DNA of 43,239 nucleotides. Origin: a virus. How positions within the stretch are numbered: position 1 is the first letter of the stretch; the number at the start of each line of letters is the position of its first letter. Below the pieces are notes generated by a model. It searched no databases, was not told the origin of the DNA, and saw only the letters and a list, made by a program, of their open reading frames with translations. Below, in pieces: positions 1,853 through 41,111 of the stretch. The position numbers and the translations under genes were made by a program. The stretch spans positions 1-43,239 of IMG/VR virus record IMGVR_UViG_3300022188_000021, one strand, 5' to 3'.

Positions 1853-2242
1853 TTACATGTCCAGATTTTTTTCTGGAGCTGAAGGACTTAAATCTTTAAT
1901 TCTGTCAAAGAGTGTTTTGCTATCTATTGTTGGCGCAGATTGAGTGCGTAGGAGGTTTTCCTCCTTGAGGTTTTCATCTTTAGGTTTTTCATCTTCTTTG
2001 ACATCCAGTTCGTTTAATGATTGAACGAACTTTAAATCCTCCTCCTTGGAAAAATCCGTAGTTTTACAATCTGAAAGTTCAAGTTCCTTCAATGCTTTTT
2101 TGAAATTTTCTTCAAAATTATTGTCTTTACAAGAGTGAGGTTCAACTACATTGATAATTATAGAGCTAAAATTAGGTTTTCTTACTACCCTTTTTTCAAT
2201 CCTCAGGAGTTTTCCACAGTTTGCACAATAACAAGTTTTCAT
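1853..2242 (-). CDS. Zinc-finger-like protein with an acidic linker and an embedded palindrome
   Basis: A 129-residue hypothetical protein. The N-terminus has Cys4, Cys6 and Cys9 (CYCANCG) and a later 'HSC', which suggests a zinc site. The rest is acidic and probably unstructured. One copy of the 25-bp genome-wide palindrome (2007-2031) lies inside this frame and encodes FVQSLNEL near the middle, so the repeat is tolerated in, or was inserted into, a coding linker. Function unknown. Confidence 0.65.
   Translation of the reverse strand: MKTCYCANCGKLLRIEKRVVRKPNFSSIIINVVEPHSCKDNNFEENFKKALKELELSDCKTTDFSKEEDLKFVQSLNELDVKEDEKPKDENLKEENLLRTQSAPTIDSKTLFDRIKDLSPSAPEKNLDM
2007..2031. repeat. 25-bp dispersed palindrome, copy 1 (inside a gene)
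   Basis: Arms AGTTCGTTTAA and TTGAACGAACT around TGA. The half-site outer octamers are perfectly complementary. It lies within the zinc-finger-like gene and is read in frame. Confidence 0.85.
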
Positions 2243-2281
2243 TTTAACTTCCTTTCTTCCCTAATTTAGAAATTAACAAGT

Positions 2282-2602
2282 TTAAACTTCTTCAAGTTCC
2301 TCAACTATTTCAACCTTCAACCTTTCCCAAGGTTCTGCCTTGGGATTTATTTCAGTCAGGATACAAAAGATTGGTTTTCCAATCTCAAGCATTGCAGAAG
2401 TTTCACTTGAATATTTTTTAGGAACATATCCAAGCATGGTTTCGTCTTTCATAATCTTCACAGCGTTTGGGTCGAACTTGTTCTCCGGCTCAGGCACAAG
2501 TTTTAATTTCTCACCTTGTTTTAACTCATGAATTACCTCATTAGCTTGATGGAATCTAACTCCAGCAACAAAGAATGAGTGAATAGTTTTAAACTCTTTC
2601 AT
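2282..2602 (-). CDS. HIRAN-domain protein
   Basis: A 106-residue protein consisting of almost nothing but a HIRAN domain: 'FFVAGVRFH' strand at 10-18, 'LVPEPENKFDPNAVKI' at about 35-50, then 'LGYVPKKYS'. HIRAN domains (HLTF/Rad5) bind 3' single-stranded DNA ends, and stand-alone phage and bacterial versions are thought to recognise stalled or damaged DNA. It sits next to the DNA ligase in the minus-strand operon, so a role in replication or repair is reasonable. Family assignment is strong; the role is inferred. Confidence 0.85.
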   Translation of the reverse strand: MKEFKTIHSFFVAGVRFHQANEVIHELKQGEKLKLVPEPENKFDPNAVKIMKDETMLGYVPKKYSSETSAMLEIGKPIFCILTEINPKAEPWERLKVEIVEELEEV

Positions 2603-2627
2603 TTCCTTTCTCCTTTTGTTTTAAAGT

Positions 2628-3488
2628 TTATAAAACTTCCACAAAGACAGGAAACATTGGGACTTTCTTTGCGGAAAGATGTTGATATGAAACTTTGCAA
2701 ATCCTACCTTTTAATTCATTTCTTATGTTCCACAAGAACTCTCGTTCTTCTCTTGTGAAACCTGTGCCGACATTGAAAGTTGTTCCATCACCGCTTGCAC
2801 AGACTAGAGAGCCAATAGAAGGTTTCGGCACACCATTTACAGACACCTCTTGATTGAAACTTATAATTTCATACTCGTCGCTTTTTTTAGGTTTAAACTT
2901 CATGATGTAAATAGAACGTTTTCGCTCATAACGAGCATAGATGTTACGAACTATTATTCCTTCGTAGTTTTTATCTATCAAATCTTCATAAACTCTCATT
3001 ACATCTTGAAGATTCTCACACATGTAATAAGGTGAGATTATTAAACTATTTAAACCAAGAGATTTTATCTCTTCTTCCAAATCAATCAAGGTTTTCAACC
3101 TATACATTTGTTGTTCTGAGTTGACTACATCAAAGATGTGAAAGGAAATCTTTTCATGCTCAGGATGGATGTTTACTGTTCTTGAAACAATGGAAGATAT
3201 TTTTTCAAAACTCATTCCATGACAATAAAGTTCTCCATCTAGTTCGTAGTTAACTTTGAGCTTCTCTAATTGGTCATTTATATGAGGGACTGAAAAAATA
3301 ACATTTTCTTCTGAAGATAGGAGAATAAAACTAATTGACCTATCTGGTTGTTCCATAGGTATAGCACGACATCTTATGCCATTATACTTTGGTTGAACTA
3401 TGTAGGGCCTACTCCAGGTGTTTAACCTTTTTTCCGAAAAAGGATAGGCCTTCATTATGTTTTTCCATCTTTGCCATTTATTAGTCAT
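2628..3488 (-). CDS. ATP-dependent DNA ligase
   Basis: A 286-residue enzyme that seals nicks using ATP. Lys34 in 'QPKYNGIR' is the nucleotidyl-transfer lysine (motif I, with the unusual KxNG in place of KxDG). Motif III is 'FHIFDVV', motif IV 'YEGIIVRN', and motif V 'IMKFKPKK'. The C-terminal part with 'FNVGTGFTREERE' fits the short OB domain. It has the length of small phage ligases of the T7/viral type. It lies in the early operon with the HIRAN protein and serves lagging-strand joining together with the phage polymerase. Confidence 0.9.
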   Translation of the reverse strand: MTNKWQRWKNIMKAYPFSEKRLNTWSRPYIVQPKYNGIRCRAIPMEQPDRSISFILLSSEENVIFSVPHINDQLEKLKVNYELDGELYCHGMSFEKISSIVSRTVNIHPEHEKISFHIFDVVNSEQQMYRLKTLIDLEEEIKSLGLNSLIISPYYMCENLQDVMRVYEDLIDKNYEGIIVRNIYARYERKRSIYIMKFKPKKSDEYEIISFNQEVSVNGVPKPSIGSLVCASGDGTTFNVGTGFTREEREFLWNIRNELKGRICKVSYQHLSAKKVPMFPVFVEVL

Positions 3489-3504
3489 TTATTTTTCCTT
3501 TCAT

Positions 3505-3942
3505 TCAGTCATTGCAGCTTATTATGTATTTTATTAAAGGTTTCTTTAACTTGACTGTTTCTTCAACTTCTATCATTTCTCCAGTTTCAATAGGAACTAT
3601 ACGACATGAGTCACTTGAGGAAGTTATTACTGTTATATAGATATAGACTCCCTTTATATCCATATGGGTATAGTAACTAATCCCTATCCCATCTACTACC
3701 CTAGACCACTTTACACCTAATGCATCTGAAAGGTCGGAAATTATTTCTGATTCAAAATATTCAGCTGAGATATTTTTTATATAAATGTAGGAAGAATAAG
3801 TAATGGTTTCAATTTCTATTGGAATGTTGCCAAGGATAGGTTTGATTTTGTTGATACATTCTTTTTGAACAATAAGTTCAGTTCTAACTTTTGTAGAATA
3901 TTCTTCAAAATGTTTTGTTAATCTATCTTTCAATTCAATCAT
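3505..3942 (-). CDS. Hypothetical protein
   Basis: A 145-residue protein with no family I recognise. It has alternating hydrophobic and polar strands in the middle (IETITYSSYIYIK; GVYIYITVI) and an N-terminal helix, so it is probably a small alpha/beta protein. It is the last gene before a hairpin that separates it from the independently expressed 4046-4405 gene. Translation starts at 3942 behind AAAAAGC, a weak site. Confidence 0.6.
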   Translation of the reverse strand: MIELKDRLTKHFEEYSTKVRTELIVQKECINKIKPILGNIPIEIETITYSSYIYIKNISAEYFESEIISDLSDALGVKWSRVVDGIGISYYTHMDIKGVYIYITVITSSSDSCRIVPIETGEMIEVEETVKLKKPLIKYIISCND

Positions 3943-3992
3943 TGCTTTTTCCCCTATTTTTTAATGTGAAAAATTGTACTAATTAGGTTTTT

Positions 3993-4029
3993 AAAATAGC
4001 CCTTGAGAATTATCCCAAGGGCTATTTTT
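3993..4029 (-). terminator. Rho-independent terminator after 4046-4405
   Basis: Arms AAAATAGCCCTTG (3993-4005) and CAAGGGCTATTTTT (4016-4029) form a 13-bp stem with a 10-base loop. T-runs lie on both sides, so it could work in either direction. It sits 16 bases beyond the stop of the 119-residue gene, which has its own promoter, making that gene a complete single-gene unit. Confidence 0.8.
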
Positions 4030-4045
4030 AGGTGGTTGAAAGAAA

Positions 4046-4405: not shown

Positions 4406-4439
4406 TCTTACTCCTCCTTTTAAAAAAGTTAGTTGTTGC

Positions 4440-4458
4440 GACAAACACTGCGTTTGTC
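4440..4458 (-). promoter_or_regulatory. Leader hairpin in the 5' untranslated region
   Basis: A perfect 7-bp stem, GACAAAC and GTTTGTC with a 5-base loop, lies between the predicted transcription start (near 4470) and the ribosome site of the 119-residue gene. A 5'-proximal hairpin of this kind often stabilises mRNA. That role is inferred. Confidence 0.5.
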
Positions 4459-4476
4459 ATTTTGAAATACAATAAG

Positions 4477-4505
4477 ACAATAACATGATGTGGTTTATTT
4501 GTCAA
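4477..4505 (-). promoter_or_regulatory. Sigma70-type promoter for 4046-4405
   Basis: On the minus strand a perfect TTGACA (4500-4505) is followed after exactly 17 bases by TATTGT (4477-4482), preceded by TGT, which makes an extended -10. It is the strongest promoter-like sequence I see in the genome. Confidence 0.75.
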
Positions 4506-5410: not shown

Positions 5411-5435
5411 AGTCTGTTTAACGATTGAACGAACT
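5411..5435. repeat. 25-bp dispersed palindrome, copy 2
   Basis: Arms AGTCTGTTTAA and TTGAACGAACT around CGA. It lies between the stop of 5439-5681 and the ribosome site of 5218-5379. Confidence 0.85.
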
Positions 5436-5438
5436 ATT

Positions 5439-7532: not shown

Positions 7533-7557
7533 AGTTCGTTCAATGATTGAACGAACT
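7533..7557. repeat. 25-bp dispersed palindrome, copy 3 (perfect)
   Basis: Arms AGTTCGTTCAA and TTGAACGAACT around TGA, fully complementary. It overlaps the TAG stop of the 7556-8335 gene and stands at the edge of the operator cluster. Confidence 0.9.
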
Positions 7558-8335
7558 ATTCTTTATCCCTAGGTTCAACCATCAAAGTTTTCAAAAACTC
7601 TAAATCAACCCTCTTTTCCATCTCAAACCTTTCTTTATCCCTCTTTTCGATTTCCATCTTTTTCCTTTCCCACTCTTCATCACTCATGTTTTCTTTAACA
7701 GTTGGAACAACATCTTTTTCAAAACCTTTGGAATTTTCAAAATTCTCAATAGGTGGTTTCAAACTTTCAATCTCATCTTTAATAACAAAACTTGACCTCT
7801 TAAAATCCTCAACCTGTTTTTCCAAACTTTTCTTCATCTCTTCTTCCTCAATTTTTCTATAAATCTCTAAAGCTTCATCTACTTTCCTCCTCCTTTCTTC
7901 ATCATCTAATGAACCACTCCTAACTCTCATTGGAGAATTAACATCAACTTTCGAAACTCCTCTAAAATCACTTTTAATCAGACCTAGTTTTTTCCTCCTC
8001 TCACTTAAAACTAAATTATGCCTCAAGTTCCTCATACCTCTTCCTTTAGGATTTAGATTAACTCTATATTTCAAACTTAATAAATTCCTAGCATCTTTTG
8101 TATCATCTACTAACTCTACAAGTTGTTTTTCAACTAAATTATCACAAAGGATTTGCAATCCATCTTTTACAACCTCACTTAAAAACCTCGTAACTCTCCC
8201 TTCCATGTCAAGCCAGTTACTAATAGTTGCTAAAACCCTACTATCAACCCAGCATTGAACAAAGGCATCTCCTTTATAATCAACTGGGTCAACCATAGCT
8301 GAGCCTTTCGTACTGTTTCTAACATAATCTTTCAT
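7556..8335 (-). CDS. Ribbon-helix-helix-like DNA-binding protein beside the iterons
   Basis: A 259-residue protein. Residues about 26-63 read as a strand (FVQCWVD), a helix (RVLATISNWLDME) and a second helix (RFLSEVVKDGLQIL), the order of a ribbon-helix-helix DNA-binding domain. The C-terminal half is highly charged and coiled-coil-like (ERKKMEIEKRDKERF). It has a strong AAAGGAGG site. It lies immediately downstream of the AT-rich iteron region (8515-8852), a position typical of an initiator or origin-binding regulator. It could be the protein that binds the iterons or the 25-bp palindromes. The domain call rests on pattern only. Confidence 0.6.
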   Translation of the reverse strand: MKDYVRNSTKGSAMVDPVDYKGDAFVQCWVDSRVLATISNWLDMEGRVTRFLSEVVKDGLQILCDNLVEKQLVELVDDTKDARNLLSLKYRVNLNPKGRGMRNLRHNLVLSERRKKLGLIKSDFRGVSKVDVNSPMRVRSGSLDDEERRRKVDEALEIYRKIEEEEMKKSLEKQVEDFKRSSFVIKDEIESLKPPIENFENSKGFEKDVVPTVKENMSDEEWERKKMEIEKRDKERFEMEKRVDLEFLKTLMVEPRDKE

Positions 8336-8388: not shown

Positions 8389-8413
8389 AGTTCGTTCAAC
8401 CATTGAACAGACT
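8389..8413. repeat. 25-bp dispersed palindrome, copy 4
   Basis: Arms AGTTCGTTCAA and TTGAACAGACT around CCA, at the left edge of the origin-like region. Confidence 0.85.
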
Positions 8414-8550: not shown

Positions 8551-8710
8551 TGTCGTCATGTCAATGACCGTCACGGTAGCAAATTCCATTGAACAATCTA
8601 ACAATATATATCTTTTAAGTGTTGTTTAATAACTATTTTTTATATATTTAAAACCTATATTTTAAAATTTTTTTTGTAACAATTGTTACATTTAAAAATT
8701 ATATATACTA

Positions 8711-8760: not shown

Positions 8761-8785
8761 AGTTCGTTCAACGATTAAACGAACC
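8761..8785. repeat. 25-bp dispersed palindrome, copy 5
   Basis: Arms AGTTCGTTCAA and TTAAACGAACC around CGA, between iteron arrays B and C. The last base departs from the family (C for T). Confidence 0.85.
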
Positions 8786-9599: not shown

Positions 9600-9722
9600 C
9601 GTCTGACAAAAAAAGGTCAATGGGGGAAAAGTCCGTTCCACAATGGGCGGTTAGCACTCTCAAATTTTGTCTGGAAAATTATTAAATGTGACAAATGTTA
9701 CAAATAAATTTGTGAAAAACCC

Positions 9723-9747
9723 AGTTTGTTCAACGATTGAACAGACT
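9723..9747. repeat. 25-bp dispersed palindrome, copy 6
   Basis: Arms AGTTTGTTCAA and TTGAACAGACT around CGA, about 60 bp upstream of the terminase promoter. Confidence 0.85.
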
Positions 9748-9805
9748 TTTTTGAAAAAATTTTTCGGTGAAAAAAAAGTTCATTCCATTTGGGAAAATTT
9801 ATTCC

Positions 9806-9834
9806 TTGACTCCTGCAAAATTATTTGTTATGGT
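9806..9834 (+). promoter_or_regulatory. Promoter of the rightward structural operon
   Basis: TTGACT (9806-9811), 17-bp spacer, TATGGT (9829-9834) with TGT directly before it as an extended -10. The start of transcription would fall near 9841, some 40 bases before the ATG of the small terminase. This supports that start. Confidence 0.65.
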
Positions 9835-9882
9835 TTAGTTAAAATAATAATAAAAAATTTTTTGAAGAAAAACTGGGAAAAA

Positions 9883-12003: not shown

Positions 12004-12216
12004 GTGAACGGAACAGGCATTTGTAATTGGAATGACTGGAAAAATTTATCAGAAGACCAAAAACAGTTTGAAATCCATAGAGTGCTTGTAGCACTTGATA
12101 ACAGGACTAATGACATTATGAAATCAGTAAAATTCTACGCATTTTCTGGCGGTTTTGTTGGTGGAGTAGTTACAGTTTTGGCAATTTTTAGTTTTAAACT
12201 TTCATTTAATTTTTAG
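12004..12216 (+). CDS. Small membrane protein, possible lysis accessory
   Basis: A 70-residue protein. The GTG at 12004 is chosen since GGAGG lies 11 bases upstream and longer frames sit inside the terminase gene. Its amphipathic N-terminal half contains a helix (QFEIHRVLVALDNRTNDIM) and the C-terminal 25 residues form one transmembrane helix (GGFVGGVVTVLAIFSF). It lies in the lysis region, so a holin or pinholin-like role is possible. The TAG stop is formed by the first bases of palindrome copy 7. Confidence 0.6.
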   Translation: MNGTGICNWNDWKNLSEDQKQFEIHRVLVALDNRTNDIMKSVKFYAFSGGFVGGVVTVLAIFSFKLSFNF

Positions 12217-12239
12217 TTCGTTTAATGGTTGAACAGACT
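12215..12239. repeat. 25-bp dispersed palindrome, copy 7
   Basis: Arms AGTTCGTTTAA and TTGAACAGACT around TGG. Its first two bases complete the stop codon of the 70-residue gene. Confidence 0.85.
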
Positions 12240-14902: not shown

Positions 14903-15265
14903 ATGGCTAATACAATAAAAGCTACTAATAATTTCATAGAACTTTCATTAGATGGTTTAACTGATTTTGATGTAACTACTGACCTTGAAAATTTAGGATT
15001 AAATTTCAACGCTTCCAATGGCATTAGGGTTAGGAAAGTTATTTTTATTCCAAGTGCCGCTGGTGACAAGGTTGTGATAAGAGATACTCAAAACGGGCCT
15101 ATAATGTTTTATGCAACAGATGTGCTTGGGACTTATGATATTTTAAAAGATGATTATCGTGAAGATGGGAAAATTGACAGAGGGAAATTGGTAACTCCTT
15201 TCATTGATGCAAGTGAGTGTACGATAACTAATGCAAATCAGGCATTTGTTATCTTTGAACTTTAA
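14903..15265 (+). CDS. Small virion-like protein
   Basis: A 120-residue beta-rich protein (RKVIFIPSAAGDKVVIRD; TNANQAFVIFEL), similar in look to small phage decoration or tail-associated proteins, but with no firm family. It starts two bases after the beta-helix gene stop, and its TAA stop runs into palindrome copy 8. It lies between the spike-like gene and the portal, so a structural role is likely. Confidence 0.6.
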   Translation: MANTIKATNNFIELSLDGLTDFDVTTDLENLGLNFNASNGIRVRKVIFIPSAAGDKVVIRDTQNGPIMFYATDVLGTYDILKDDYREDGKIDRGKLVTPFIDASECTITNANQAFVIFEL

Positions 15266-15289
15266 GTTCGTTTAACGATTAAACAGACT
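15265..15289. repeat. 25-bp dispersed palindrome, copy 8
   Basis: Arms AGTTCGTTTAA and TTAAACAGACT around CGA. It begins in the stop codon of 14903-15265 and ends directly before the GGAG of the portal gene. Confidence 0.85.
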
Positions 15290-17257: not shown

Positions 17258-17574
17258 TGAAAGAAATAAAAGTAAATGCTACAAAAGAGCAGATTGAAAG
17301 ATTTAAAGAATCTATCTTATGGCAAGATATAGTTAATGAACTATCTGCTTGGAAAAAAGGTTTTGAAATAGAACTTAAGTCAATAGTTGATGACGCAGCT
17401 GCTAATAATCCTTCAACTGCTTCTGTCCTCCTTCACATGGGAGACCTTAATGGAAGGTTAAAAGCTGTCGAATACATGATTGGGATATTAGACCTTTTTA
17501 TGATAATAATAGATGAACAGAACAAAGAAAAGGAAGATAAAAGTTTGGACAATGAAAGTTCGTTTAACGGTTGA
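17257..17574 (+). CDS. Small helical protein between portal and scaffold
   Basis: A 105-residue helical protein; ATG overlaps the portal stop (TAATG), so it is coupled to it. The central motif 'SVLLHMGDLNGRLKAVEYMIGILD' is typical of small phage proteins lying next to the portal. No function is known. Its stop TGA lies within palindrome copy 9. Confidence 0.65.
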   Translation: MKEIKVNATKEQIERFKESILWQDIVNELSAWKKGFEIELKSIVDDAAANNPSTASVLLHMGDLNGRLKAVEYMIGILDLFMIIIDEQNKEKEDKSLDNESSFNG

Positions 17575-17581
17575 ACAATCT
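17557..17581. repeat. 25-bp dispersed palindrome, copy 9
   Basis: Arms AGTTCGTTTAA and TTGAACAATCT around CGG. It contains the stop codon of 17257-17574 and precedes the AAGGAGGAG of the scaffold. Confidence 0.85.
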
Positions 17582-20971: not shown

Positions 20972-21193
20972 ATGCCTGTTAAAATAACTAAATTAAAATC
21001 TGGAAAATATCGTGTTTCGACTCCTCATGGAGTTAAATCTAAAGGAACAACAAAGAAAAAAGCAATGGCTCAGAAAAGGCTTTTAAATGCCATAGACCAT
21101 GGTTGGAAACCTTCCAAAAAGAGAAAGAAAAGACATCATTCAGCTGAAGATGGAAGGTTTCTTGAAAGTAGAATAAACAAGTTCGTTCAATGA
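20972..21193 (+). CDS. Small basic conserved phage protein
   Basis: A 73-residue, strongly basic protein starting 'MPVKITKLKSGKYRVSTPHG' and containing 'KGTTKKKAMAQKRLLNAIDHGWKP'. This is a common small phage family next to adaptor genes, with unknown role and possibly DNA- or capsid-binding. The frame runs four bases after the adaptor gene, and its stop lies inside palindrome copy 10. Confidence 0.7.
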   Translation: MPVKITKLKSGKYRVSTPHGVKSKGTTKKKAMAQKRLLNAIDHGWKPSKKRKKRHHSAEDGRFLESRINKFVQ

Positions 21194-21204
21194 TTAAACA
21201 ATCT
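21180..21204. repeat. 25-bp dispersed palindrome, copy 10
   Basis: Arms AGTTCGTTCAA and TTAAACAATCT around TGA. It supplies the TGA stop of 20972-21193 and ends a few bases before the next ribosome site. Confidence 0.85.
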
Positions 21205-23320: not shown

Positions 23321-23761
23321 ATGAGTAATCAAGTACCTAATGCATGGAAAAGTCAGTTGTGGAAAGGTTATCTTTCTGATACTTTTAAAATTATTTTAAT
23401 GCAGCCTGGGTTTACATTTGATAAAGACAGTCATAAATCTTATTCAGATGTCTCAGCTTTTGAATTGCCTAATGGAAATGGCTATACTACAGGAGGTGAA
23501 ACCTTAACAGGCATTGCAAGAACAACTGACGATGTTGAAGATAGGTGTGAAATAACTTGGAACAATGTCCAGTGGAATGCTTCAGGAGGTTCATTGTCTA
23601 CCTGTGGAGCTATTATTTACAACGACTCTGCCGCAATAGCAGATGGTTACGATTATGATGATGCAATAGTTGCATTTATTGATGCAGGTGGGACAATAAC
23701 TGCCACCGACGGAACTCCGATTATAATAAGTTCCATTATGATAACTATTGAAGATGTATAG
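23321..23761 (+). CDS. Probable tail/receptor-associated protein
   Basis: A 146-residue beta-rich protein beginning 'MSNQVPNAWKSQLWKGYL' and continuing with 'DTFKIILMQPGFTFDKDSHKSY'. I recognise the general look of small phage tail-associated proteins, but no function can be given. It has a GGAG site at 23310. Its TAG stop uses the first bases of palindrome copy 11. Confidence 0.6.
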   Translation: MSNQVPNAWKSQLWKGYLSDTFKIILMQPGFTFDKDSHKSYSDVSAFELPNGNGYTTGGETLTGIARTTDDVEDRCEITWNNVQWNASGGSLSTCGAIIYNDSAAIADGYDYDDAIVAFIDAGGTITATDGTPIIISSIMITIEDV

Positions 23762-23784
23762 TTCGTTTAACCATTAAACAATCT
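23760..23784. repeat. 25-bp dispersed palindrome, copy 11
   Basis: Arms AGTTCGTTTAA and TTAAACAATCT around CCA. It gives the TAG stop of 23321-23761 and precedes a GGAGG site. Confidence 0.85.
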
Positions 23785-25511: not shown

Positions 25512-25945
25512 TGGTTATTAGAGTTTTATCTTTTCAAATACCGCAGTTTTGGGAAGCTATTAAGTTTGTAGTTGACAGAAGCAGTGGGTTTGGAGAATAT
25601 GATAGGAGAAGTTATTTTACTCAACTCTTATGCGACCTTTTGAGTAACAAGAGTCAATGTTTCATAGCTGTTGATGAAAACTATGAAATGTATGCTTTGG
25701 CAATTACTGAAATTAAAATAAATGAGTTTTCAGAAAAGAAATACCTAGTGGTTAAAAATCTTTATTCATGGAAGTTTACAAAAGAAGATGTTTGGCACAG
25801 GCATTGGAGGACAGTTGAAAAATTCGCTAAAAATCAAGGCTGTGAATATATCTATTTCGAATCTGGAAATAAAAGAATTTGGGAACTGTCTGAAAAATTT
25901 GGTGCTAAGGAAAGTTTTAGGGTTTACAGATATGATGTTAATTAG
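25511..25945 (+). CDS. GNAT-like virion protein
   Basis: A 144-residue protein with the strand-helix order of a GNAT acetyltransferase: helix (FWEAIKFVVDRS), strand (CFIAVDENYEMYALAITEI), strand (KYLVVKNLYSW), helix (HWRTVEKFAKNQGCEYIYFES) and an end 'WELSEKFGAKESFRVYRYDV'. The acetyl-CoA loop (Q/RxxGxG/A) is not obvious. Small GNAT-like proteins occur between tail and ejection genes in podoviruses, as here. Its TAG stop is contributed by palindrome copy 12. Confidence 0.55.
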   Translation: MVIRVLSFQIPQFWEAIKFVVDRSSGFGEYDRRSYFTQLLCDLLSNKSQCFIAVDENYEMYALAITEIKINEFSEKKYLVVKNLYSWKFTKEDVWHRHWRTVEKFAKNQGCEYIYFESGNKRIWELSEKFGAKESFRVYRYDVN

Positions 25946-25968
25946 ACCGTTTAATGATTAAACGAACT
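25944..25968. repeat. 25-bp dispersed palindrome, copy 12
   Basis: Arms AGACCGTTTAA and TTAAACGAACT around TGA. It supplies the stop of 25511-25945 and precedes the AAGGAGG site of the next gene. Confidence 0.85.
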
Positions 25969-28056: not shown

Positions 28057-31000
28057 ATGAATGAATTTAGTGGAAATTCTGCTATTAAAATTCTTGAAGG
28101 TTTAAAAGGTGAAGATGAGGAAGTTAAGACACCTAAAACAACTAAACCTTTTGAAGAAGAAGAAGTGCCTTTGGATACTTCTGTTATTTCAGGAAGTTCA
28201 GCAATAGATGTTTTAGAAAATCTTAAAAAACCTGAAGAGCCTGAAGTTTCTGAGACTGAGATTGAAGAAAAAGAAACAGTAAAAAATCCTCCAACTGAAC
28301 TTGCTAAAAGTTTTTTAGGTGGAATTTACTATTCTGCTATTGCACCTACTACTGTTGATGAGACTATGCGCCCTGTGGATGAAGAAGGTAGGCCAATAGG
28401 TATTGGGAAAACTCTTGCTGAAAAAACTCCTCATGAAAAGAAGAGGGAAGAGGAACTTAAAAAACCCATAACTGAAAGAGAGTTTAGATTAGAACCTGTT
28501 TCGAAAGAAGAGGATTATAGAAGCTCAAACATTATCCGTAAAGCTATATATAAAATAAATGATTTGTTAGGTACTAACATCGAACCTAAATTATCTGATG
28601 AAGCAAGAACTATGGCTTTTTTAGAGTATATGGCCAAGCAAGAAGGAATGACTCTTAGTGAATATATAGGACCTAACCCTTTTGGACAATTATCTGAAGG
28701 CTTTGTAGGTACTGCTTTAAGCCCTATAATGGCTATTCATAGAGAATTAACAGGTGAGAGACCTATAGAACCATCTACTCCTTTAGAGGGAGTAATGAGA
28801 GGTGCTGGCTCTATAGGTGGAGCTGCCTTATGGATGAATATTTTAGGAAAACCTTTGGGTTTTGCTACTGGTTTTTTACCTAAAGTTACAGCTGAGACTC
28901 CAAAAGCAGTTAGAATTGTGACTTCAATGATTAAATCTGGAATAGATTGGGGAGCAGTAGGTGGTGTAATAAGTATTGGAGATGCTGTGCGGGAGCCTAC
29001 TATGGCAGAGGCAGCTAAACATATAGCAGAAGAGTCAGGTACTAGTGCTGTATTAGGTGGTATCATTGGTGCGACAAAAGGAGTATTTCCAGTTAAAGAT
29101 TTAGACAGAGTAAAAAGATTAGCTACTGGTTTAATAGGCATCAATGCCTTTAGAGCTTATGAATATGGACTTGACAAATACTTTAATAGGCCAGTTAGTG
29201 AATTAGCCTTTGATACTTTTCTTGACACATGGATGTTGTGGAATGGACTGCCTAAAGGTAAGTTTGATAAAGTATCTAGAAGTTTGTTAGAGATTTCTGA
29301 AAATGCTAGGGAATATGTTAAGAGGAAAGAAGCTGTTAAAGATATTCCTGATGAAAGGATTAAACAGGCACAAGAGAAAATTTTAGAAGTTGAAAAAGCT
29401 AAAATTGAAAATGCTTATGATAAACTTATGAAGAATGTTGGAGATGATATTGAAGTAGCTTTTGATTTATTTAGACAATACGAAGATGTTGTGAAGGAAC
29501 AACTAAGGCCTGTTGCTAAAAGTGGATTAAAAAAGCCTGGCAAAAGAGTTGAAAAAACAGATATTAAGAAACTTAAACCAGAATATTCTTTTACAAGCAA
29601 AAAAGGTAATAAATATGTAAAGAAAGGAAATGTATGGTATGACAGTGAAGGGAAAGTAGTTAGAAACAGCTTTATTATTAAAGCAGCTGAGGCAAAGAAA
29701 GTTAAAGTCCAAGAAGTGGAAAAATCTTCTATTGAAGAACCTAAAGAAACAACAGAAGAGGTTGTTGAACCTGTTGAAAAACCTAAAGAGGTTAAAGAAG
29801 TTAAAGAAAGTGAAAGGATTGAAGAACCTAAGGAAACCAAACAAGAACCTGACATAGTTTCTGCAACTGAAGAACTCATAAATGTTTTAAAAAAAGACAT
29901 AGACCCTCCTGCAGAAGCACCTTCTGGAGCACAGAGTCCTTTTTATTTTACTTCTGAAAGACTTGAAAGGTCTAAGAAAATAATAGAAGGAAAATCAGAG
30001 CATGAAATAAGAACTGACCCAAATCTTTATTTACACAGTCTTATAACAAAGTTTAATAGATGGGTCAAAGGTGATAAAAGCATAGATGTTGGTGAAGTTA
30101 GAAAATCTCTGAGTATGTTATCTGCTTATGCTGATGAGTTTAAAAAAGATTTTAATACAGAAGATGCTTATTATATGTGGAAACATACAGCTAAAGAGGC
30201 ATCCATCTGGGCTAACCGGACAGACCGTTTAATCATTAAACAAACTGAAGGTAAAAAGAGTGGGGAAAGTAAAGGGGTTAGGTTAAACCTTGGAGTCCCA
30301 ATAGACGAAGTTCCAAAGGAGGTTAAGAAACTTGCAAAGAGTATTAAGAAGTCTGGAAAGAGTCTTTATAGGAATTATAAGATATGGAAAGAAACTGGTT
30401 TCTGGCTTGGAAAGGATGGAAAGTGGAGGTATGCAGTACCTACTGACGATTTGTTTATTAAAGTAAAAAATTTAGAAGAGTTTAAGAAAACTGAAGGTAA
30501 GCTCAAAGACCTTGTAAATGAAGATGCTGAGATACTTAAGGCAGTGCCTGAGTTGAAAGACCTTAATGTAAAAATAGATAAAAGATTAAAGCCTGGAACT
30601 GGATATTACAATGATGTTAAAAAGACTATTGTTCTTTCAGAATTGAAAGACTTTGAAGTATTAGACCATGAAATAGGTCATGCCATAAATGATTTAAGAG
30701 GTTCATCATTCCTTGGCACTTCTCCAGAATGGCAAAGAGGTAAACTTCGAGCTGATGCTGTTAGACATTTGTTATTTAAAATTCTGCCTGAGGCAAAAAC
30801 TAAGGAAGTAAGAAGTAAGATACTAGATTTTATTAACGAAACTTATGAAGAAACTTATAACGGAAAAATTTCTAGAATAGACCTAGTCGAAAGAGCAAAG
30901 AGAAAATATGCTCATGAGTTAAGTAAAGCAGGAGACCAAGAGGCAGCTAAAAAATTAAGAGGGCTTTCAGACATTTCTAAAAAAGAAGCTGAGGAAAGAT

Positions 31001-34000: not shown

Positions 34001-34047
34001 AAGAGAGGGAGCGAAAGGAAAAGGTAAATAGTCTGTTCAATGATTAA
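28057..34047 (+). CDS. Giant polyvalent virion protein with metallopeptidase and LPD38-like domains
   Basis: A 1996-residue protein, the last and largest structural gene, in the place of the large ejection protein of podoviruses. Two copies of a short N-terminal peptide (SGNSAIKILEGLK, SGSSAIDVLENLK) are followed by hydrophobic and linker regions. A zinc-peptidase motif HEIGH lies at His871-His875, with Glu990 in 'GEMESRLFASY' a possible third ligand. The C-terminal third ('NVAKVFHTGITPFWNLCVNLP', 'MDFSQGGWFIKAAD') resembles LPD38, a domain of phage polyvalent proteins injected with DNA. The protein probably enters the host and may cut peptidoglycan or host proteins. A palindrome copy lies in frame at 30222-30246. 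Confidence 0.75.
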   Translation: MNEFSGNSAIKILEGLKGEDEEVKTPKTTKPFEEEEVPLDTSVISGSSAIDVLENLKKPEEPEVSETEIEEKETVKNPPTELAKSFLGGIYYSAIAPTTVDETMRPVDEEGRPIGIGKTLAEKTPHEKKREEELKKPITEREFRLEPVSKEEDYRSSNIIRKAIYKINDLLGTNIEPKLSDEARTMAFLEYMAKQEGMTLSEYIGPNPFGQLSEGFVGTALSPIMAIHRELTGERPIEPSTPLEGVMRGAGSIGGAALWMNILGKPLGFATGFLPKVTAETPKAVRIVTSMIKSGIDWGAVGGVISIGDAVREPTMAEAAKHIAEESGTSAVLGGIIGATKGVFPVKDLDRVKRLATGLIGINAFRAYEYGLDKYFNRPVSELAFDTFLDTWMLWNGLPKGKFDKVSRSLLEISENAREYVKRKEAVKDIPDERIKQAQEKILEVEKAKIENAYDKLMKNVGDDIEVAFDLFRQYEDVVKEQLRPVAKSGLKKPGKRVEKTDIKKLKPEYSFTSKKGNKYVKKGNVWYDSEGKVVRNSFIIKAAEAKKVKVQEVEKSSIEEPKETTEEVVEPVEKPKEVKEVKESERIEEPKETKQEPDIVSATEELINVLKKDIDPPAEAPSGAQSPFYFTSERLERSKKIIEGKSEHEIRTDPNLYLHSLITKFNRWVKGDKSIDVGEVRKSLSMLSAYADEFKKDFNTEDAYYMWKHTAKEASIWANRTDRLIIKQTEGKKSGESKGVRLNLGVPIDEVPKEVKKLAKSIKKSGKSLYRNYKIWKETGFWLGKDGKWRYAVPTDDLFIKVKNLEEFKKTEGKLKDLVNEDAEILKAVPELKDLNVKIDKRLKPGTGYYNDVKKTIVLSELKDFEVLDHEIGHAINDLRGSSFLGTSPEWQRGKLRADAVRHLLFKILPEAKTKEVRSKILDFINETYEETYNGKISRIDLVERAKRKYAHELSKAGDQEAAKKLRGLSDISKKEAEERYLTDQGEMESRLFASYIPQEYPKGKYGSVPPWKFLDDMLEEEGLGKKYGTRLYSGLPVDLIYKYGKEYTEAFLKDWKAAKEQGKLTKGDIIRGFTEATFNTAYQLRKDLKKIELSGKGKDRAYKVLQIHVNSAGGHGYGGVLYKQMKKEVARGLDKNKTRILNQLIRGQRFYDISKYKSMKFPKHQDYKRAISYEAVFKDLEGLTEEEAADLIRRRDLFFDWMKRIVDDLEKDEIITKEMAEGLRSHDYAKLKGIGQRIEKEGEGITVEDLFDEKEYVKVGNRLRPVASSGIESLKTGKSSDILDPDQIKVASEIFSRAYGRIFRNRVFKALADLGKEFPDNGIVKLPGLRDPKTGKVIKVGDTRGYSKFYFREGGKKRTIYISDDYMRSLDIAGTDVSPRMINVNKYLLLTNVAKVFHTGITPFWNLCVNLPLDIMGTYFSQGIYRNGRFERVYSWFPVKFAGQILKDYIDTADVLVRGVGLDKSPKYKKSAERGLLMPFFATQGKLSNTYENLSKAYENFENTAGYISESVELWTRMANVNRVVKLRAKEKGISVEEAWNDPEILDEAVFSARDRMDFSQGGWFIKAADKGGMIYLNSGAQATRTFFRSLAENNPGETAKIITTFGVPVVLSTMAGLLYAPKTHRDIPKYQDYNYLNVPLSDKLRTIDPETGEEIGFYISVPIGSGPAFLKNLFQALTEKFAYDNGITKEPPNYEAIVGSLKASMPDVMSLPPGFRAFIEYTLNINTWSGKSPSAQKFRYPYSAAEYTPGRTPQVAIDVGEKTGLSPDRLTQSMRDIFGHNTVWTYGFTEGYEQLFGGGSEDEKEEMMEGIVYMLYKLSKLPGAGRWIRIARPGTGYRDEEDKKHDEIMAERFQRTKAMDFLAKQLYWRNVKEAKGEIKELFKEVKDPDEIERLRNRALFIRSIKPLKHKSMWIRALNKPAEERAFVVYNRLKQAVDEEERKEIWREANYMNSGIYGTKNKFFGGDFIEEYGKLVRREKERERKEKVNSLFND
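30222..30246. repeat. 25-bp dispersed palindrome, copy 13 (inside a gene)
   Basis: Arms AGACCGTTTAA and TTAAACAAACT around TCA, in frame in the polyvalent protein, encoding about eight residues (DRLIIKQT) in a charged linker. Confidence 0.8.
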
Positions 34048-34054
34048 ACGGACT
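34030..34054. repeat. 25-bp dispersed palindrome, copy 14 (convergent junction)
   Basis: Arms AGTCTGTTCAA and TTAAACGGACT around TGA. It covers the stop codons of the plus-strand polyvalent gene and of the minus-strand helicase-like gene, which themselves overlap by four bases. Confidence 0.85.
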
Positions 34055-38200: not shown

Positions 38201-38711
38201 TAGCTTTCATTAAATCATTGCAAATCAAAGGTTTGTTCAAGTAATTAAACTTTGGAGGAATAAAAGTCGCTGGATGAAAAGTAGGGATAACTTTAAGGTA
38301 AGGAACTAATGTCGATTCAAGAATTGAACCTCTCCACTTGGTTATCCCAACTCTGTTGGTTAAAGCTATTAAAGCCACATTTCCAAGAGCTATTACTACA
38401 TTAGGTTTTACTCTGGAAAGTTCTTCTCCTAATTCTTTTATATATTCATAGCCTTCAGAGGAAATAGAATATTTTCCTCTTGAATCTAAGTTAATGTAAT
38501 GTTTTAAAGGTTTATCAAGGTCTTTAATAACATTTGTTATGTATAGTTCATTCCTTGGAATTTTTACAAGTTTCAAACATTCATCAAAGGCCTTCCCAGC
38601 AGGGCCAATGAAAGGTTTTCTTGCCCTAATTTCCTGTATTCCAGGCTGTTCACCTACTACTGCTATTTTTGCATTGAGGTTCCCAGAAGGTGGGACATAT
38701 GTCTTTTTCAT
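35265..38711 (-). CDS. UDG-domain/family A DNA polymerase fusion containing an intein
   Basis: A 1148-codon gene. Residues 1-190 are a uracil-DNA-glycosylase-like domain ('GEQPG', 'KPFIGPAGKAF', 'TFHPA'), as fused in the polymerase of SPO1-type phages, here without iron-sulfur cysteines. A DnaQ/PolA 3'-5' exonuclease follows ('SMDIEVI', 'GANFIFDL', 'YNGMD'), then polymerase A palm and fingers. Motif A is 'FDLSQIENR' with Asp866; motif B is 'GKKGNHAINYDVG'; motif C is 'QIHDSVVF' with Asp1061, where Ser replaces the usual Glu. Residues 529-840 are an intein, and the spliced enzyme would have 836 residues. It is the replicative polymerase. Confidence 0.92.
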   Translation of the reverse strand: MKKTYVPPSGNLNAKIAVVGEQPGIQEIRARKPFIGPAGKAFDECLKLVKIPRNELYITNVIKDLDKPLKHYINLDSRGKYSISSEGYEYIKELGEELSRVKPNVVIALGNVALIALTNRVGITKWRGSILESTLVPYLKVIPTFHPATFIPPKFNYLNKPLICNDLMKAKEESEFPEIRRRERKICIKPSFDQAIYHLDYCYKVGLSGQIISMDIEVINGELDCISFAWSDCESISIPFRHQQGDYFTVEQELEIMKKVAKIIESEKIEKVGANFIFDLQFLFRKYGIVPRGSIHCTQIAQKIAFPDFKAGLDFVTTMHTDIPYYKQDGKQWMKLGAGSWEEWWNYNGMDAIVPVEAIGKQLKILEKQGNIETYNRQRRLIKPLMYMAERGIKVDVTSMAEYKEKQQAELDKLAEELNREVGYEINYNSPAQLKDYFYDQLGLKPYKNRSTGKVTTDVDALKRIYRQKGPGSKVARLMLDIRSLSKRISTYLNIGKIDPDGRMRSSYKPVGAETGRISSGTTIFGTGCMPPDAEALTKNGWKSLYELYQKPEKILQWDISGNLSWCMPEMNEYDFAGSMIVANSNIHKALYTPDHRIPTISKRGFLTVKKALEVKDKSNWFLPLSGIYTGGILDLPTVRLFAVIQADGSIEGNGIRFSFSKQRKIDRFLALMEAYEIDFTEQSDKKGFRRFYIKPKYAKPYINILQVDNKKLFGPWILLLNQKSLFELLDEIKHWDSYIRGESFIFYTAIKENAEWVATLAHLCGKSATITKIENNKYKDSYSDNVTTLYNVNIKPRCKAYQHKDMYSEKQYNQKVYCPTVETSYFLCRYKNTIFVTGNSNQQNWPHDLLRFFTFDEGYIGYSFDLSQIENRIVAYVGGVISQIKAFEEGIDLHRLTASIIFDKPYDQISDKDGSSELGDGRQSERYWGKKGNHAINYDVGYKTFALKNEMTETEAKRVIETIHKGYPQIRNGYHQTIIKMLMKDRTVTNLFGRKRLFLGPIVPSPPSVSKSACLNTYREAFAHLPQSTTADKINEQGVEYIYYNQEKFKPLELLTQIHDSVVFQIPLTIPWHEHARMLLDIKKSLEQPLYWNEREIKTPADLCIGFNMCKEEMVEIKSKDFPTNQETLAKKLKEVYDKLVKKSNQE
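36192..37127 (-). other. Intein with LAGLIDADG-like endonuclease domain in the polymerase gene
   Basis: 312 codons from Cys529 to Asn840, inserted after 'TIFGTG' and before Ser841. Block A is 'CMPPDAEALTKNGW', block B has 'TPDHRI', and the C-terminal end 'VYCPTVETSYFLC' and 'IFVTGN' followed by Ser matches phage inteins. The penultimate residue is Gly rather than the usual His. A degenerate LAGLIDADG-type block 'LFAVIQADGSI' lies in the middle, pointing to a homing endonuclease, possibly inactive since only one clear motif is visible. Confidence 0.88.
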
Positions 38712-38730
38712 TTATTAGCTCCTTTTAATG

Positions 38731-38755
38731 AGATTGTTCAATCGTTGAACAGACT
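38731..38755. repeat. 25-bp dispersed palindrome, copy 15
   Basis: Arms AGATTGTTCAA and TTGAACAGACT around TCG, between the methyltransferase stop and the AAAAGGAG of the polymerase gene. Confidence 0.85.
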
Positions 38756-40082
38756 AATTGTTGAATAAGTTATTCACCTTAACAAGAAAAGAATCTTTAT
38801 ATGCTTTAGTCAGTTCAAAACCAACAGCTGACATTCCTAGTTGATGAGCACTTATCAAACCATTGCCTGAGCCGAGGAAGGGGATTAAAACCCTTGAGCC
38901 TTTAAAAGCAAAGGTTTCATAGATTTCAGTAGTTAACTCGACAGGCCTTTCTGTTGGATGAACCTTTTTCATCGCAGGGAGAGGATTAAAAGAAAAAACA
39001 TTAGACCTTCCAGCTTTGTTAATAACTGGTTTTCCTTTCCTTGCATAGAAAAATAGTTCATAACTATTTGCGAGTTTAAAGTTTGGATTATTAGTTTGAC
39101 CACTCCCTTTGTTCCAAACCCCGCAGATTCTAGAGGTTTCAAAACCTGCTTTTGTTAACTCTTGGTAAATCGTTTCAAACCAAGGCTCAGGTGCAAACCA
39201 GCAGATGAGCCAACTATGTTGTGCCATAACTCGATAACATTCTTTGAAAAGATTGGAGAGAAAATCTTGATATTTTTCCTTGGGAATTTCATTGTAGTCA
39301 GTGATTAAGTGTTTGTCTTTTATATTACTATTCGAACGCTTGATTTCTTTCAAGTCTATTGCATAAGGAGGGTCGATTTCTACGAGATGAAAAACCTCAT
39401 TAGGGATTTCTTTAACTCCTTCAAAGAAATCTTTTATAATAAAAGAGTTGGACAACTTCTTTAATTCAACGGAAGATTTTTCTTTAAGTTTTTTAGCAAT
39501 AGATTCTTTAACTACCGCTTCATCAATTTGTTTTAATAATTTAGTTGCATCTTTCTGAGTCTTACAATCCTCAAAGAGTTCTGGAAACTTTTCCCTTGCC
39601 TCAGCTCTTTTAATTGCCATAGAGACACTGGCTTTAGATAGGCCACCAATTAGTTCCCCAGTATCTTTAATCCCCCATCCTTTGTCAGTAGGGCCTGCAG
39701 ATTTTTCGCCTTTAAGTTTTTGTTGCATTCTGTGGATTTCAAGAGTTAGTTTATCCAACTCCCAATATTCCATGTCTTTTCGATGGAAGTTTTCAGACTT
39801 CTCAATTACTTTCATTTCGAGTTCTGACAAGTCGTGGTTGTAAAATCTTACAGGAATTTCTTTTACATTATTCTTTTTTAAAACAGTGAAACGTCTGCCT
39901 CCGGCGAGAAGTGTGTAAGTTCCATCTTTGTTATCTTTTACAGCTAAGGGAGTTATCAAACCACTTTCTTTCATATTTTCTTCAAGACTTTTTATGTCAC
40001 CTAGTTCCTCCCTAGCCCTTTCTCCAACTATTATTTTCTCAATAGGAATCATCCCTACTTTGCCAACTTCAATTTTGCTCAT
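38754..40082 (-). CDS. ParB-domain/DNA methyltransferase fusion
   Basis: A 442-residue fusion. Residues 5-110 are a ParB/Srx-type N-domain with 'LLAGGRRF' (61-65) and 'ENFHR' (97-101), the ParB CTP-binding motifs. A helical part at about 130-200 contains 'DTGELIGGLSKASVSMAIKRA', an HTH-like segment. The C-terminal 230 residues form an N4/N6 methyltransferase: DPPY at Asp237 (motif IV) precedes FLGSG at Phe402 (motif I), a beta-class order. ParB-methyltransferase fusions are known in phages. The target is not visible. It could bind the dispersed palindromes, or protect phage DNA from restriction. Confidence 0.85.
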   Translation of the reverse strand: MSKIEVGKVGMIPIEKIIVGERAREELGDIKSLEENMKESGLITPLAVKDNKDGTYTLLAGGRRFTVLKKNNVKEIPVRFYNHDLSELEMKVIEKSENFHRKDMEYWELDKLTLEIHRMQQKLKGEKSAGPTDKGWGIKDTGELIGGLSKASVSMAIKRAEAREKFPELFEDCKTQKDATKLLKQIDEAVVKESIAKKLKEKSSVELKKLSNSFIIKDFFEGVKEIPNEVFHLVEIDPPYAIDLKEIKRSNSNIKDKHLITDYNEIPKEKYQDFLSNLFKECYRVMAQHSWLICWFAPEPWFETIYQELTKAGFETSRICGVWNKGSGQTNNPNFKLANSYELFFYARKGKPVINKAGRSNVFSFNPLPAMKKVHPTERPVELTTEIYETFAFKGSRVLIPFLGSGNGLISAHQLGMSAVGFELTKAYKDSFLVKVNNLFNN

Positions 40083-40084
40083 TT

Positions 40085-40279
40085 TTAAACTCCTAAGATT
40101 TTTAAGATTTCATTAACTTGGTTACTGTCAAGATTTGAAATAGCTTTTTTCTTCGTAGAAGGACTCCGCCTTTTTTTCACAGGCACTCTTCTCGATAACC
40201 TTATTTGTCTTAAAAGTTCAAGATTTTCATCTTCGGATAAATCCAAGATAGATTTAATATCAAGGTCTTCAAGCTTCAT
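40085..40279 (-). CDS. Hypothetical small basic protein
   Basis: A 64-residue protein with a basic central patch (RRVPVKKRRSPSTKKK) flanked by short helices (LDLSEDENLELLRQI; NQVNEILKILGV). It lies two bases before the ParB-methyltransferase start and overlaps the upstream gene by 11 bases, hence a coupled set. It may bind DNA. Family unknown. Confidence 0.55.
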   Translation of the reverse strand: MKLEDLDIKSILDLSEDENLELLRQIRLSRRVPVKKRRSPSTKKKAISNLDSNQVNEILKILGV

Positions 40280-40514
40280 TTTTGTTCTCCTTTTTAATTC
40301 TTAATGAAGGTAAAGCTTCTTTTGGCTTTATTTTCTTTTCAAGAATTAAACCAATAGCCATGCCTCCGTATTCTTCTAATAAATCCAAGACATCATCTAA
40401 AATAATTGAAAATAAGGCCTTCCTTATTCCATGAGTTGATAGTAGTAAATCAGCTTTTCGTTTTTGCTCTTCGGTAATTTCAAAGGTAAATCTTGGTCGG
40501 TAATCTTCAAGCAT
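40269..40514 (-). CDS. Ribbon-helix-helix-like small protein
   Basis: An 81-residue protein. The N-terminal sequence 'RPRFTFEITEEQKRKADLLL' (strand then helix) and 'IRKALFSIILDDVLDLLEEYG' (second helix) fit a ribbon-helix-helix fold like Arc/CopG repressors, with a basic C-terminal tail. A dimer would bind DNA via the strand pair. It lies upstream of the ParB-methyltransferase. It overlaps the dCMP deaminase end by eight bases. A candidate binder of the palindromes. Confidence 0.6.
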   Translation of the reverse strand: MLEDYRPRFTFEITEEQKRKADLLLSTHGIRKALFSIILDDVLDLLEEYGGMAIGLILEKKIKPKEALPSLRIKKENKNEA

Positions 40515-41067
40515 TTTTAGTTTCCTCCTCTTTGAAAAATTCTCTGATAATTAAGTCTGAGTTATCTACAATATATTCAGATAAAGAGTCATAAAAAATA
40601 AGTTCTTTTACCACTATCATTTTAATGCCTGAGTTAATAACTGCTCCAAGACAATTTTTGCAGGGGATGCAAGAGTTGATATACAAAGTTGCTCTTTCAA
40701 CTGATACACCAATTCTTGCGGCATTAGTTATTGCATTCATCTCTGCATGTTGAGCTGGACAAAGTGATAGTCCTTCGTTACTTTTATATTCAAGAAGTTT
40801 TCTTGGACAAGTTATTTTAACATCTAGGTCATCATAAGTAGATTTAAAAACTTCTGTGTCAAATACTTTTTTCAAAACTTTGTCTTTTAAAGCTCTTTCT
40901 TTTCCACAATGAGGTACTTTCCTAGGAGGGCCATTGTAGCCGGTTGAAATAACTATGTTATCCCTAGCTATCACAACACCTATTTTGCGACTCAGGCAAG
41001 GTGACTCTTCACTTATTGTTACACAAAGATTTAAAAAATACCTGTCCCATTTTTTACTTGCTGTCAT
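40507..41067 (-). CDS. dCMP deaminase
   Basis: A 186-residue zinc enzyme that converts dCMP to dUMP, feeding thymidylate. The start at 41067 is taken (AAGAAAAGG upstream) over a TTG thirty bases earlier that sits in palindrome copy 16. Zinc-binding and catalytic residues are visible in 'PAQHAEMNAI' (His and Glu) and 'CIPCKNC' (two Cys). 'GYNGPPRKVPHCG' is the substrate loop. No thymidylate synthase or kinase is seen in the genome, so it would complement host enzymes. It lies between the SSB-like gene and the small RHH-like gene. Confidence 0.88.
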   Translation of the reverse strand: MTASKKWDRYFLNLCVTISEESPCLSRKIGVVIARDNIVISTGYNGPPRKVPHCGKERALKDKVLKKVFDTEVFKSTYDDLDVKITCPRKLLEYKSNEGLSLCPAQHAEMNAITNAARIGVSVERATLYINSCIPCKNCLGAVINSGIKMIVVKELIFYDSLSEYIVDNSDLIIREFFKEEETKNA

Positions 41068-41086
41068 ATCAAGTTTTCCTTTTCTT

Positions 41087-41111
41087 AGATTGTTCAATTT
41101 TTGAACGAACT
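41087..41111. repeat. 25-bp dispersed palindrome, copy 16
   Basis: Arms AGATTGTTCAA and TTGAACGAACT around TTT, between the SSB-gene stem-loop and the dCMP deaminase ribosome site. Confidence 0.85.

Follow-up and report, generated by a model that had tools for sequence, protein, structure and literature searches.

Evenly spaced palindromes in the genomes of SU10-like phages and a ParB-methyltransferase as their probable reader

Results

Palindromes and the ParB-methyltransferase gene in the phage genome

The window (the whole stretch of DNA analysed) is the 43,239-nt IMG/VR record IMGVR_UViG_3300022188_000021, positions 1 to 43,239. It contains 16 copies of a 25-bp palindrome and one isolated half-site, TTGAACAATCT, all of which pattern matching located exactly where a preliminary description had placed them (Table 1). 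The pattern AGWYYGTTYAA-N3-TTRAACRRWCT is matched exactly by 15 of the 16 copies, while the copy at 8761 differs at its last base alone, as described previously. No extra copies were found in the window at up to four mismatches to the full IUPAC pattern, and a reversed control pattern gave 0 matches. The 16-position core AG..GTTYAA..TTRAAC..CT had no match at 0 or 1 mismatch in 20 first-order Markov shuffles, which places the set of sites far above chance. The copies had all been assigned to gene junctions, and this holds for 14 of 16; those at 30222-30246 and 2007-2031 are intragenic. The copy at 9723 falls within ORF 9667-10461 only when a distal TTG start is counted. The terS-like protein has a family median of 192 aa compared with 264 aa for this ORF, which suggests a later start of the gene.

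Table 1. Palindrome copies and ParB-methyltransferase features in the window.
Feature	Position	Strand	Description
Copy 1	2007..2031	.	25-bp palindrome; within ORF 1853-2242
Copy 2	5411..5435	.	25-bp palindrome
Copy 3	7533..7557	.	Perfect 25-bp palindrome; overlaps 3' end of gene 7556-8335
Copy 4	8389..8413	.	25-bp palindrome
Half-site	8589..8599	.	Isolated, 11 bp, TTGAACAATCT
Copy 5	8761..8785	.	25-bp palindrome; last base deviates
Copy 6	9723..9747	.	25-bp palindrome; probably upstream of true terS-like gene start
Copy 7	12215..12239	.	25-bp palindrome; its AG completes a TAG stop
Copy 8	15265..15289	.	25-bp palindrome; between stop of 14903-15265 and portal gene RBS
Copy 9	17557..17581	.	25-bp palindrome
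Copy 10	21180..21204	.	25-bp palindrome
Copy 11	23760..23784	.	25-bp palindrome
Copy 12	25944..25968	.	25-bp palindrome
Copy 13	30222..30246	.	25-bp palindrome; inside 6-kb tail gene 28057-34047 (1,996-aa ORF)
Copy 14	34030..34054	.	25-bp palindrome; convergent junction, supplies both stop codons
Copy 15	38731..38755	.	25-bp palindrome; 3' end of ParB-methyltransferase gene
Copy 16	41087..41111	.	25-bp palindrome
ParB-methyltransferase, 442 aa	38754..40082	-	ParB CTPase-type N domain, ParB-type HTH and N4/N6 DNA methyltransferase; probable palindrome binder
ParB_N region, residues 26-93	39804..40007	-	GxRR box; EN..RKD box follows, about residues 97-103
Helix-turn-helix, residues 138-165	39588..39671	-	Recognition helix predicted at 150-165; motif covariation here
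Methyltransferase domain, residues 232-431	38790..39389	-	EIDPPYA and PFLGSGNG motifs

The GxRR and EN..R(K) boxes of the ParB-methyltransferase are present in every family member covered by the alignment. Its methyltransferase motifs occur in the permuted order of the beta class, with FLGSG in all covered members and motif IV as DPPY in 24 of 26. Motif IV reads DFPY in the Desulfofustis phage, DSPY in phage G013 and DPIY in a Vibrio homologue, so catalysis may not be universal in the family. The C-terminal dimerisation domain of ParB is absent, and the methyltransferase (about residues 212-431) stands in its place. An alignment-based AlphaFold model (pLDDT 79.6) matches N4/N6 methyltransferases and Noc in fold; it was taken in place of a single-sequence model (pLDDT 33), which was unusable.

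Conservation, placement and spacing of the sites

Computationally, the sites, the motif of each phage and the even spacing were all observed across the SU10-like clade. Between 9 and 24 copies occur in each of the 28 phages examined (465 sites in this phage and 27 relatives), and the consensus is phage-specific, each lineage having its own sequence. For phages DSF, G004, G019, G024 and G026, per-genome EM initially selected coding repeats in tail genes, and intergenic seeds were used instead. ParA ATPase (PF13614) was detected in none of the 28 genomes, whereas all control genomes were positive; integrase (PF00589) was likewise found in 0 of 28. A host search through genome contigs matched four MAG contigs, which were uninformative on the host.

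Throughout the clade, stop codons adjoin the palindromes, which are present in both transcription blocks. At co-directional junctions most sites follow a stop codon and precede the next ribosome site, which is 5-25 nt further on. The sites are spaced more evenly than random junctions (Stouffer z -8.3, from p-values that are non-independent across related phages and with a simple ORF caller), typically at intervals of 2-3 kb; in two relatives the intervals are mostly 5-9 kb. Giant tail genes, which offer no junction, hold most of the intragenic sites: site density is about 0.02/kb in genes of 0.6-4.5 kb versus 0.20/kb in genes longer than 4.5 kb, and 18 of the 22 genes in the latter class have an internal site. 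Microcystis phage Mel-JY34, which encodes a distant full-length ParB-methyltransferase homologue, carries a different palindrome, of 27 bp, in six nearly equidistant copies (CV 0.11, p 3e-4).

Half-site arms and RNA folding

The position of the palindromes at the 3' ends of genes, together with the strong hairpin that copy 7533 could form, would suit RNA hairpins serving as terminators or processing sites. Such a role is extremely unlikely. The two arms of a site match each other less often than random half-sites do (z -7.7, negative in 28/28 genomes), with 13 perfect palindromes observed against 43 expected, which is evidence against an RNA hairpin. Moreover, the predicted RNA folds are mostly weak, and there was no Rfam match. 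The earlier view that the element is neither a terminator nor an RNA hairpin nor a promoter is supported.

Two other statements in that description have to be revised. Half-site variants, thought to be mixed freely, cluster along the window (ACC at 25944 and 30222; ATT in the right-hand copies 17557, 21180 and 23760), and the arms, thought to vary independently, are anti-correlated clade-wide. Half-site scores also compensate within a site (r -0.37, null -0.03), as expected under selection on whole-site affinity; reading the anti-correlation as hairpin avoidance alone is thus unsafe.

Covariation between proteins and motifs

In an unbiased covariation scan, 4,349 protein windows were scored against motif change among phages. 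The six best all lie within the helix-turn-helix of the ParB-methyltransferase (r about 0.66; mean of all windows 0.056, sd 0.13), and values elsewhere in this protein range from near 0 to 0.2. For motif position 9, residue 149 of the same protein ranks first among 7,857 alignment columns. Residue 150 predicts motif position 7 in all 52 phages: glutamine occurs with A (6/6), arginine with G (1/1) and other residues with T (45/45). Half of the contigs (26/52) had been held out while this rule was formed. On a tree built without the helix-turn-helix, parsimony assigns seven changes each to residue and motif position, with seven independent co-changes. Residue 150 occupies the same column as ParB R173 and Noc Q173, a position shown by experiment to switch specificity, with glutamine reading A (PMC7383237). 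The outer AG..CT positions showed no covariation with the helix-turn-helix. A whole-protein Mantel test was rejected as misleading, as it favours slowly evolving proteins such as the primase and the SSB-like DUF669 protein.

Two RHH-like proteins of 259 aa and 81 aa had also been put forward as binders; both are encoded by core genes and have RHH-like sequences. Binding by either is very improbable. The 259-aa family has no detectable homologue in Desulfofustis phage MD01, which nevertheless carries sites, and in the 81-aa protein the RHH-like beta strand RFSFEIT is invariant across motif classes. Their inner-motif covariation peaks at 0.36 and 0.28, respectively, compared with 0.66 for the ParB-methyltransferase. 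Homologues of the 81-aa protein in IMG/VR were found by an alignment search, a direct sequence search having found nothing; PDB profile searches for RHH families yielded nothing usable. Judged from the covariation, the palindromes are almost certainly bound by the phage's own ParB-methyltransferase. This strongly favours one of the candidates named in the preliminary description, and its proposal of a symmetric DNA-binding dimer with sites genome-wide likewise gains support.

Discussion

We consider it fairly likely that the palindromes are parS-like loading sites from which ParB-methyltransferase clamps slide, marking the phage DNA as self or coating it. A dimer would bind with one half-site per helix-turn-helix, and within the inner core GTTYAA residue 150, at which the predicted recognition helix begins, would read the outer portion. 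On the model of ParB, Noc and KorB, this ParB domain would then close as a nucleotide-dependent clamp, leave the site and slide. Fusions of the ParB fold are reported to be capable of binding ATP or GTP instead of CTP (PMC12704722), which leaves the clamp nucleotide uncertain in these phages. KorB clamps have effects at distances of up to 1.5 kb from the operator (PMC11790492). With a limited range, clamps would need sites every 2-3 kb over all of the genome, giant genes and both transcription blocks included. While sliding, a clamp would bring the methyltransferase along, and the phage genome would be coated and probably methylated in vivo. We give slightly less than even weight to the possibility that the enzyme can load only at the evenly spaced palindromes of the phage, its modification then covering the whole of the phage DNA and sparing that of the host.

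The main rival to this clamp-loading model is KorB-like silencing, in which the protein on its palindromes would silence transcription, or block its elongation, throughout the genome (as KorB on RK2 or stoperators of the L5 type), so that the phage stays inactive, either early in infection or during a carrier state. KorB is itself a ParB-family clamp with several operators per replicon, sites are found in both transcription blocks, and their density and stop/start placement resemble those of stoperators. However, integrase and ParA were found in none of the 28 genomes, and mid-operon sites stand directly before ribosome sites, a position at which a block would interrupt the late operon of the phage itself. 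Coverage accounts better than promoter control for the even spacing and for the sites within giant genes, and the methyltransferase domain would be left without explanation. We therefore regard silencing as unlikely. Somewhat less likely still is that protein and sites organise, segregate or condense phage DNA, in a manner similar to partition or nucleoid occlusion, with methylation as a side activity. The homology to ParB and Noc and the many spaced palindromes, as in Noc binding sites, would fit, but ParA is missing, the methyltransferase occupies the C-terminal part through which canonical ParB dimerises, and partition is of little use to a lytic-type phage.

ParB-methyltransferase fusions are frequent in phages, and the literature found reports no DNA sites or function for them. 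Here sites, reading residues and a spacing rule were all obtained from sequence alone, in dozens of phages and in at least one isolated phage, which makes binding, sliding and methylation directly testable. If the loading model holds, DNA modification would be confined to a single genome in a new way. Matched helix-turn-helix/site pairs in the clade also form a natural series in which the evolution of ParB specificity can be followed; the Q-A and R-G pairs among them independently reproduce the known Noc/ParB switch.

Comparison with known systems

Stoperators number in the tens per genome and lie at short junctions between genes; they are asymmetric, are oriented one way with respect to transcription and are bound by the lysogeny repressor of an integrating phage. 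The comparison with them made in the preliminary description stands for density and placement and fails for symmetry, binder type and integrase: the present sites are symmetric 25-bp palindromes on both blocks, and their proposed binder is a ParB-family clamp-methyltransferase fusion. In SPbeta, too, the phage genome contains repeated sites for a regulator, MrpR, but the repeated element is a 15-bp motif in promoter regions, and MrpR is a prophage repressor with a tyrosine-recombinase fold (PMC10516654).

Among ParB-family systems, KorB-OB of plasmid RK2 is similar in that a single small replicon has several operators for a clamp that acts at kilobase range. KorB, however, needs KorA and target promoters and lacks a methyltransferase, whereas the phage sites lie between genes of one operon. 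Noc is a paralogue of ParB whose many palindromic sites (NBS) are scattered, and it pairs glutamine at the same residue with A; unlike the phage protein, it acts on the bacterial chromosome, is membrane-targeted and has no methyltransferase. With ParB-parS the phage system shares an N domain containing the GxRR and EN..RKD boxes, a ParB-type helix-turn-helix predicted to read a palindrome through the same specificity column, and an inner core, GTTYAAN, resembling the parS half GTTNCAC. It differs from ParABS in the lack of ParA, the C-terminal methyltransferase and the even spread of its sites, compared with few parS near the origin, and from parS in that its palindrome is odd, spans 25 bp and has additional AG..CT ends. 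The same domain pair is found in the phage ParB-N6/N4 methyltransferase fusions surveyed in PMC12704722, for which an anti-defence or host-interaction role is suggested; the part of that survey used here gives no DNA sites, whereas sites, spacing and helix-turn-helix covariation were found in the present phages.

Palindromic sites in the window and in related phages

The window phage has portal, capsid and adaptor genes that are all of SU10 type on its 43,239-bp IMG/VR record, and all 16 copies of the 25-bp palindrome AGWYYGTTYAA-N3-TTRAACRRWCT listed in the preliminary description are present where they had been placed, 15 matching the IUPAC pattern exactly and one with a single deviation. 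The half-site at 8589 was also confirmed, and 20 Markov shuffles gave 0 matches with ≤1 mismatch to the 16-position core. The location at gene junctions holds for every copy except those at 2007 and 30222, which lie inside genes (the copy at 9723 is counted as junctional, assuming a likely later start of the downstream gene). Half-site variants are grouped along the genome, as if by local spread of copies or neighbourhood drift.

Relatives were gathered from IMG/VR by scanning for the pattern and searching for capsids; 26 long ones were chosen, and the named Desulfofustis phage LS06-2018-MD01 was added. The IMG/VR contigs carry no completeness grades, and genes were called by a simple ORF picker. 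De novo discovery, in which no sequence was assumed, found a 25-bp palindrome in 28/28 genomes (9–24 copies each, 465 in total). Its consensus differs from phage to phage, the window having GTTYAA-type cores.

Coordinates and sequences of features in the window and other phages
Feature	Genome	Position	Sequence or description
Palindrome, ATT right arms	Window	17557, 21180, 23760	
Palindrome, ACC left arms	Window	25944, 30222	
Palindrome, TCT right arms	Window	8389, 9723, 12215, 15265	
Identical 18-bp sequence near both record ends	Window	103-120, 43120-43137	TTTACCTCCCAGGTAATT; with ribosome-site complements
Core 106-aa protein	Window	2282-2602	HIRAN domain (Pfam 4e-14)
Core 259-aa protein	Window	7556-8335	two N-terminal versions
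DNA polymerase A	Window	35265-38711	1,148 aa
ParB-methyltransferase	Window	38754-40082 (-)	442 aa
Locus with altered methyltransferase motif IV	Desulfofustis phage	10342-11634	DFPY, not DPPY
Palindrome core	Relative G012		AGATAATTAAA
Palindrome core	Relative G016		AGATATATAAA
Palindrome core	Relative G003		AGTTCGATCCA
Palindrome core	Relatives G014 and G026		CCTTCGTTTAA
Palindrome core	Desulfofustis phage		GCTATGTCCCAA
AT-rich short palindrome pairs	Vibrio phage VS-ABTNL-3	3155-3199, 23195-23240, 39918-39963, 42176-42220	

Among the 28 genomes, gene junctions hold 87% of sites vs about 28% for random positions. In the commonest layout, at co-directional junctions, the site's AG or A completes the upstream stop codon (overlap of 1–2 nt in 96/344) and the next start follows 5–25 nt past the site. 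Spacing is more even than that of random positions and of randomly chosen junctions (Stouffer z -8.3, a guide rather than a probability as the phages are related). Genes of 0.6–4.5 kb are nearly free of internal sites (12 in 620 kb), and 18/22 genes >4.5 kb contain at least one, usually 1.4–2.4 kb from the start, as if a site were required at intervals irrespective of the gene.

An RNA hairpin was rejected as the function of the palindrome, the two arms of one site agreeing less than random arms from the same genome (0.780 vs 0.806; z -7.7, negative in 28/28 genomes). Perfect palindromes number 13 vs 43 expected among the clade sites, the deficit persists when the set is restricted to high-scoring sites, and all junction types show a similar mean arm mismatch. 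Selection on total affinity may account for part of the deficit, because half-site scores compensate (r -0.37 vs null -0.03). Under either reading of the deficit, the palindrome behaves as a binding site on double-stranded DNA. When 10 window sites were folded as RNA, only 7533 gave more than a weak structure.

The ParB-methyltransferase as the probable binder

Thirty core protein families were scanned for covariation in all their 12-residue windows (4,349 windows), comparing window distance with distance of the inner part of the motif (positions 6–11) and controlling for genome-wide protein distance. The best six of the 4,349 windows overlap one another and all lie in the HTH of the ParB-methyltransferase, with r reaching 0.66 against an all-window mean of 0.056 (sd 0.13), and the protein shows little or no covariation outside it. 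For motif position 9, the top-ranked of 7,857 columns is residue 149 of the ParB-methyltransferase. A rule drawn from the 28 genomes, that Q at residue 150 pairs with A at motif position 7, was true in 26/26 held-out contigs (consensus based on 2–9 sites per contig), where R paired with G. Across 52 phages the combinations were Q/A in 6, R/G in 1 and other/T in 45, and residue and position each changed seven times on a ParB-methyltransferase tree with the HTH cut out. Mutagenesis and crystal structures have identified one residue, R173 in ParB and Q173 in Noc, that decides between G and A in the parS and NBS sites (PMC7383237); in our sequence alignment it corresponds to residue 150, where an alignment-based model predicts the recognition helix to start. 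The HTH windows heading the scan and the 52/52 agreement at residue 150 thus point to the ParB-methyltransferase, one of the candidates proposed earlier, as almost certainly the binder; at the level of sequence, sites, spacing and binder are shown.

The N domain is of ParB type with conserved GxRR and EN..RK boxes, followed by an HTH, likewise of ParB type, and by an N4/N6 methyltransferase of the beta class that carries FLGSG and, in 24/26 family members, DPPY. Motif IV is DSPY in relative G013; the Desulfofustis phage, with its altered motif, nevertheless retains the sites. The model (pLDDT 79.6, pTM 0.54) matches N4-cytosine and N6-adenine methyltransferases and Noc, its domain arrangement being uncertain because of the pTM. 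Searches of the 28 genomes detected neither ParA nor a tyrosine integrase.

Other features of the window

The DNA polymerase A exceeds the clade median of about 839 aa and has an N-terminal uracil-DNA glycosylase-superfamily domain; an intein is suggested by its residues 640–843, with a match to a ribonucleotide-reductase PHROG and a weak one to LAGLIDADG_3. The HIRAN protein is clade-conserved except in the Desulfofustis phage. The N-terminal versions of the 259-aa protein (VPVQARI and VLVQVWMDSR types) are divergent and independent of palindrome class. No terminal repeat was found in the record.

Distant relatives and known systems

Two isolated SU10-like phages encode distant ParB-methyltransferase homologues of identical layout. 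In Microcystis phage Mel-JY34, a 27-bp palindrome (GTGTAATTC...GAATTACAC) occurs six times at intervals of 7.2–9.6 kb (CV 0.11, p 3e-4 vs random placement). Vibrio phage VS-ABTNL-3, a weaker case, carries a shorter palindrome ten times, with several of the copies paired 23–24 bp apart in intergenic gaps. In PaMx41 and Kuura, where no ParB-methyltransferase was detected, no comparable motif was found.

By homology, the ParB-methyltransferase would form a dimeric clamp whose closure depends on nucleotide and which, once closed, slides along DNA; its domain architecture suggests a methyltransferase that is carried along by the clamp and modifies phage DNA. Sites governed by coverage rather than gene position would follow from such a travelling methyltransferase. 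Silencing and DNA organisation, each by the same binder at the same sites, are less probable alternatives. A ParB-fold survey records such fusions in phages and suggests an anti-defence role (PMC12704722). KorB clamps work over distances of up to 1.5 kb (PMC11790492), a reach of the same order as half the site spacing found here.
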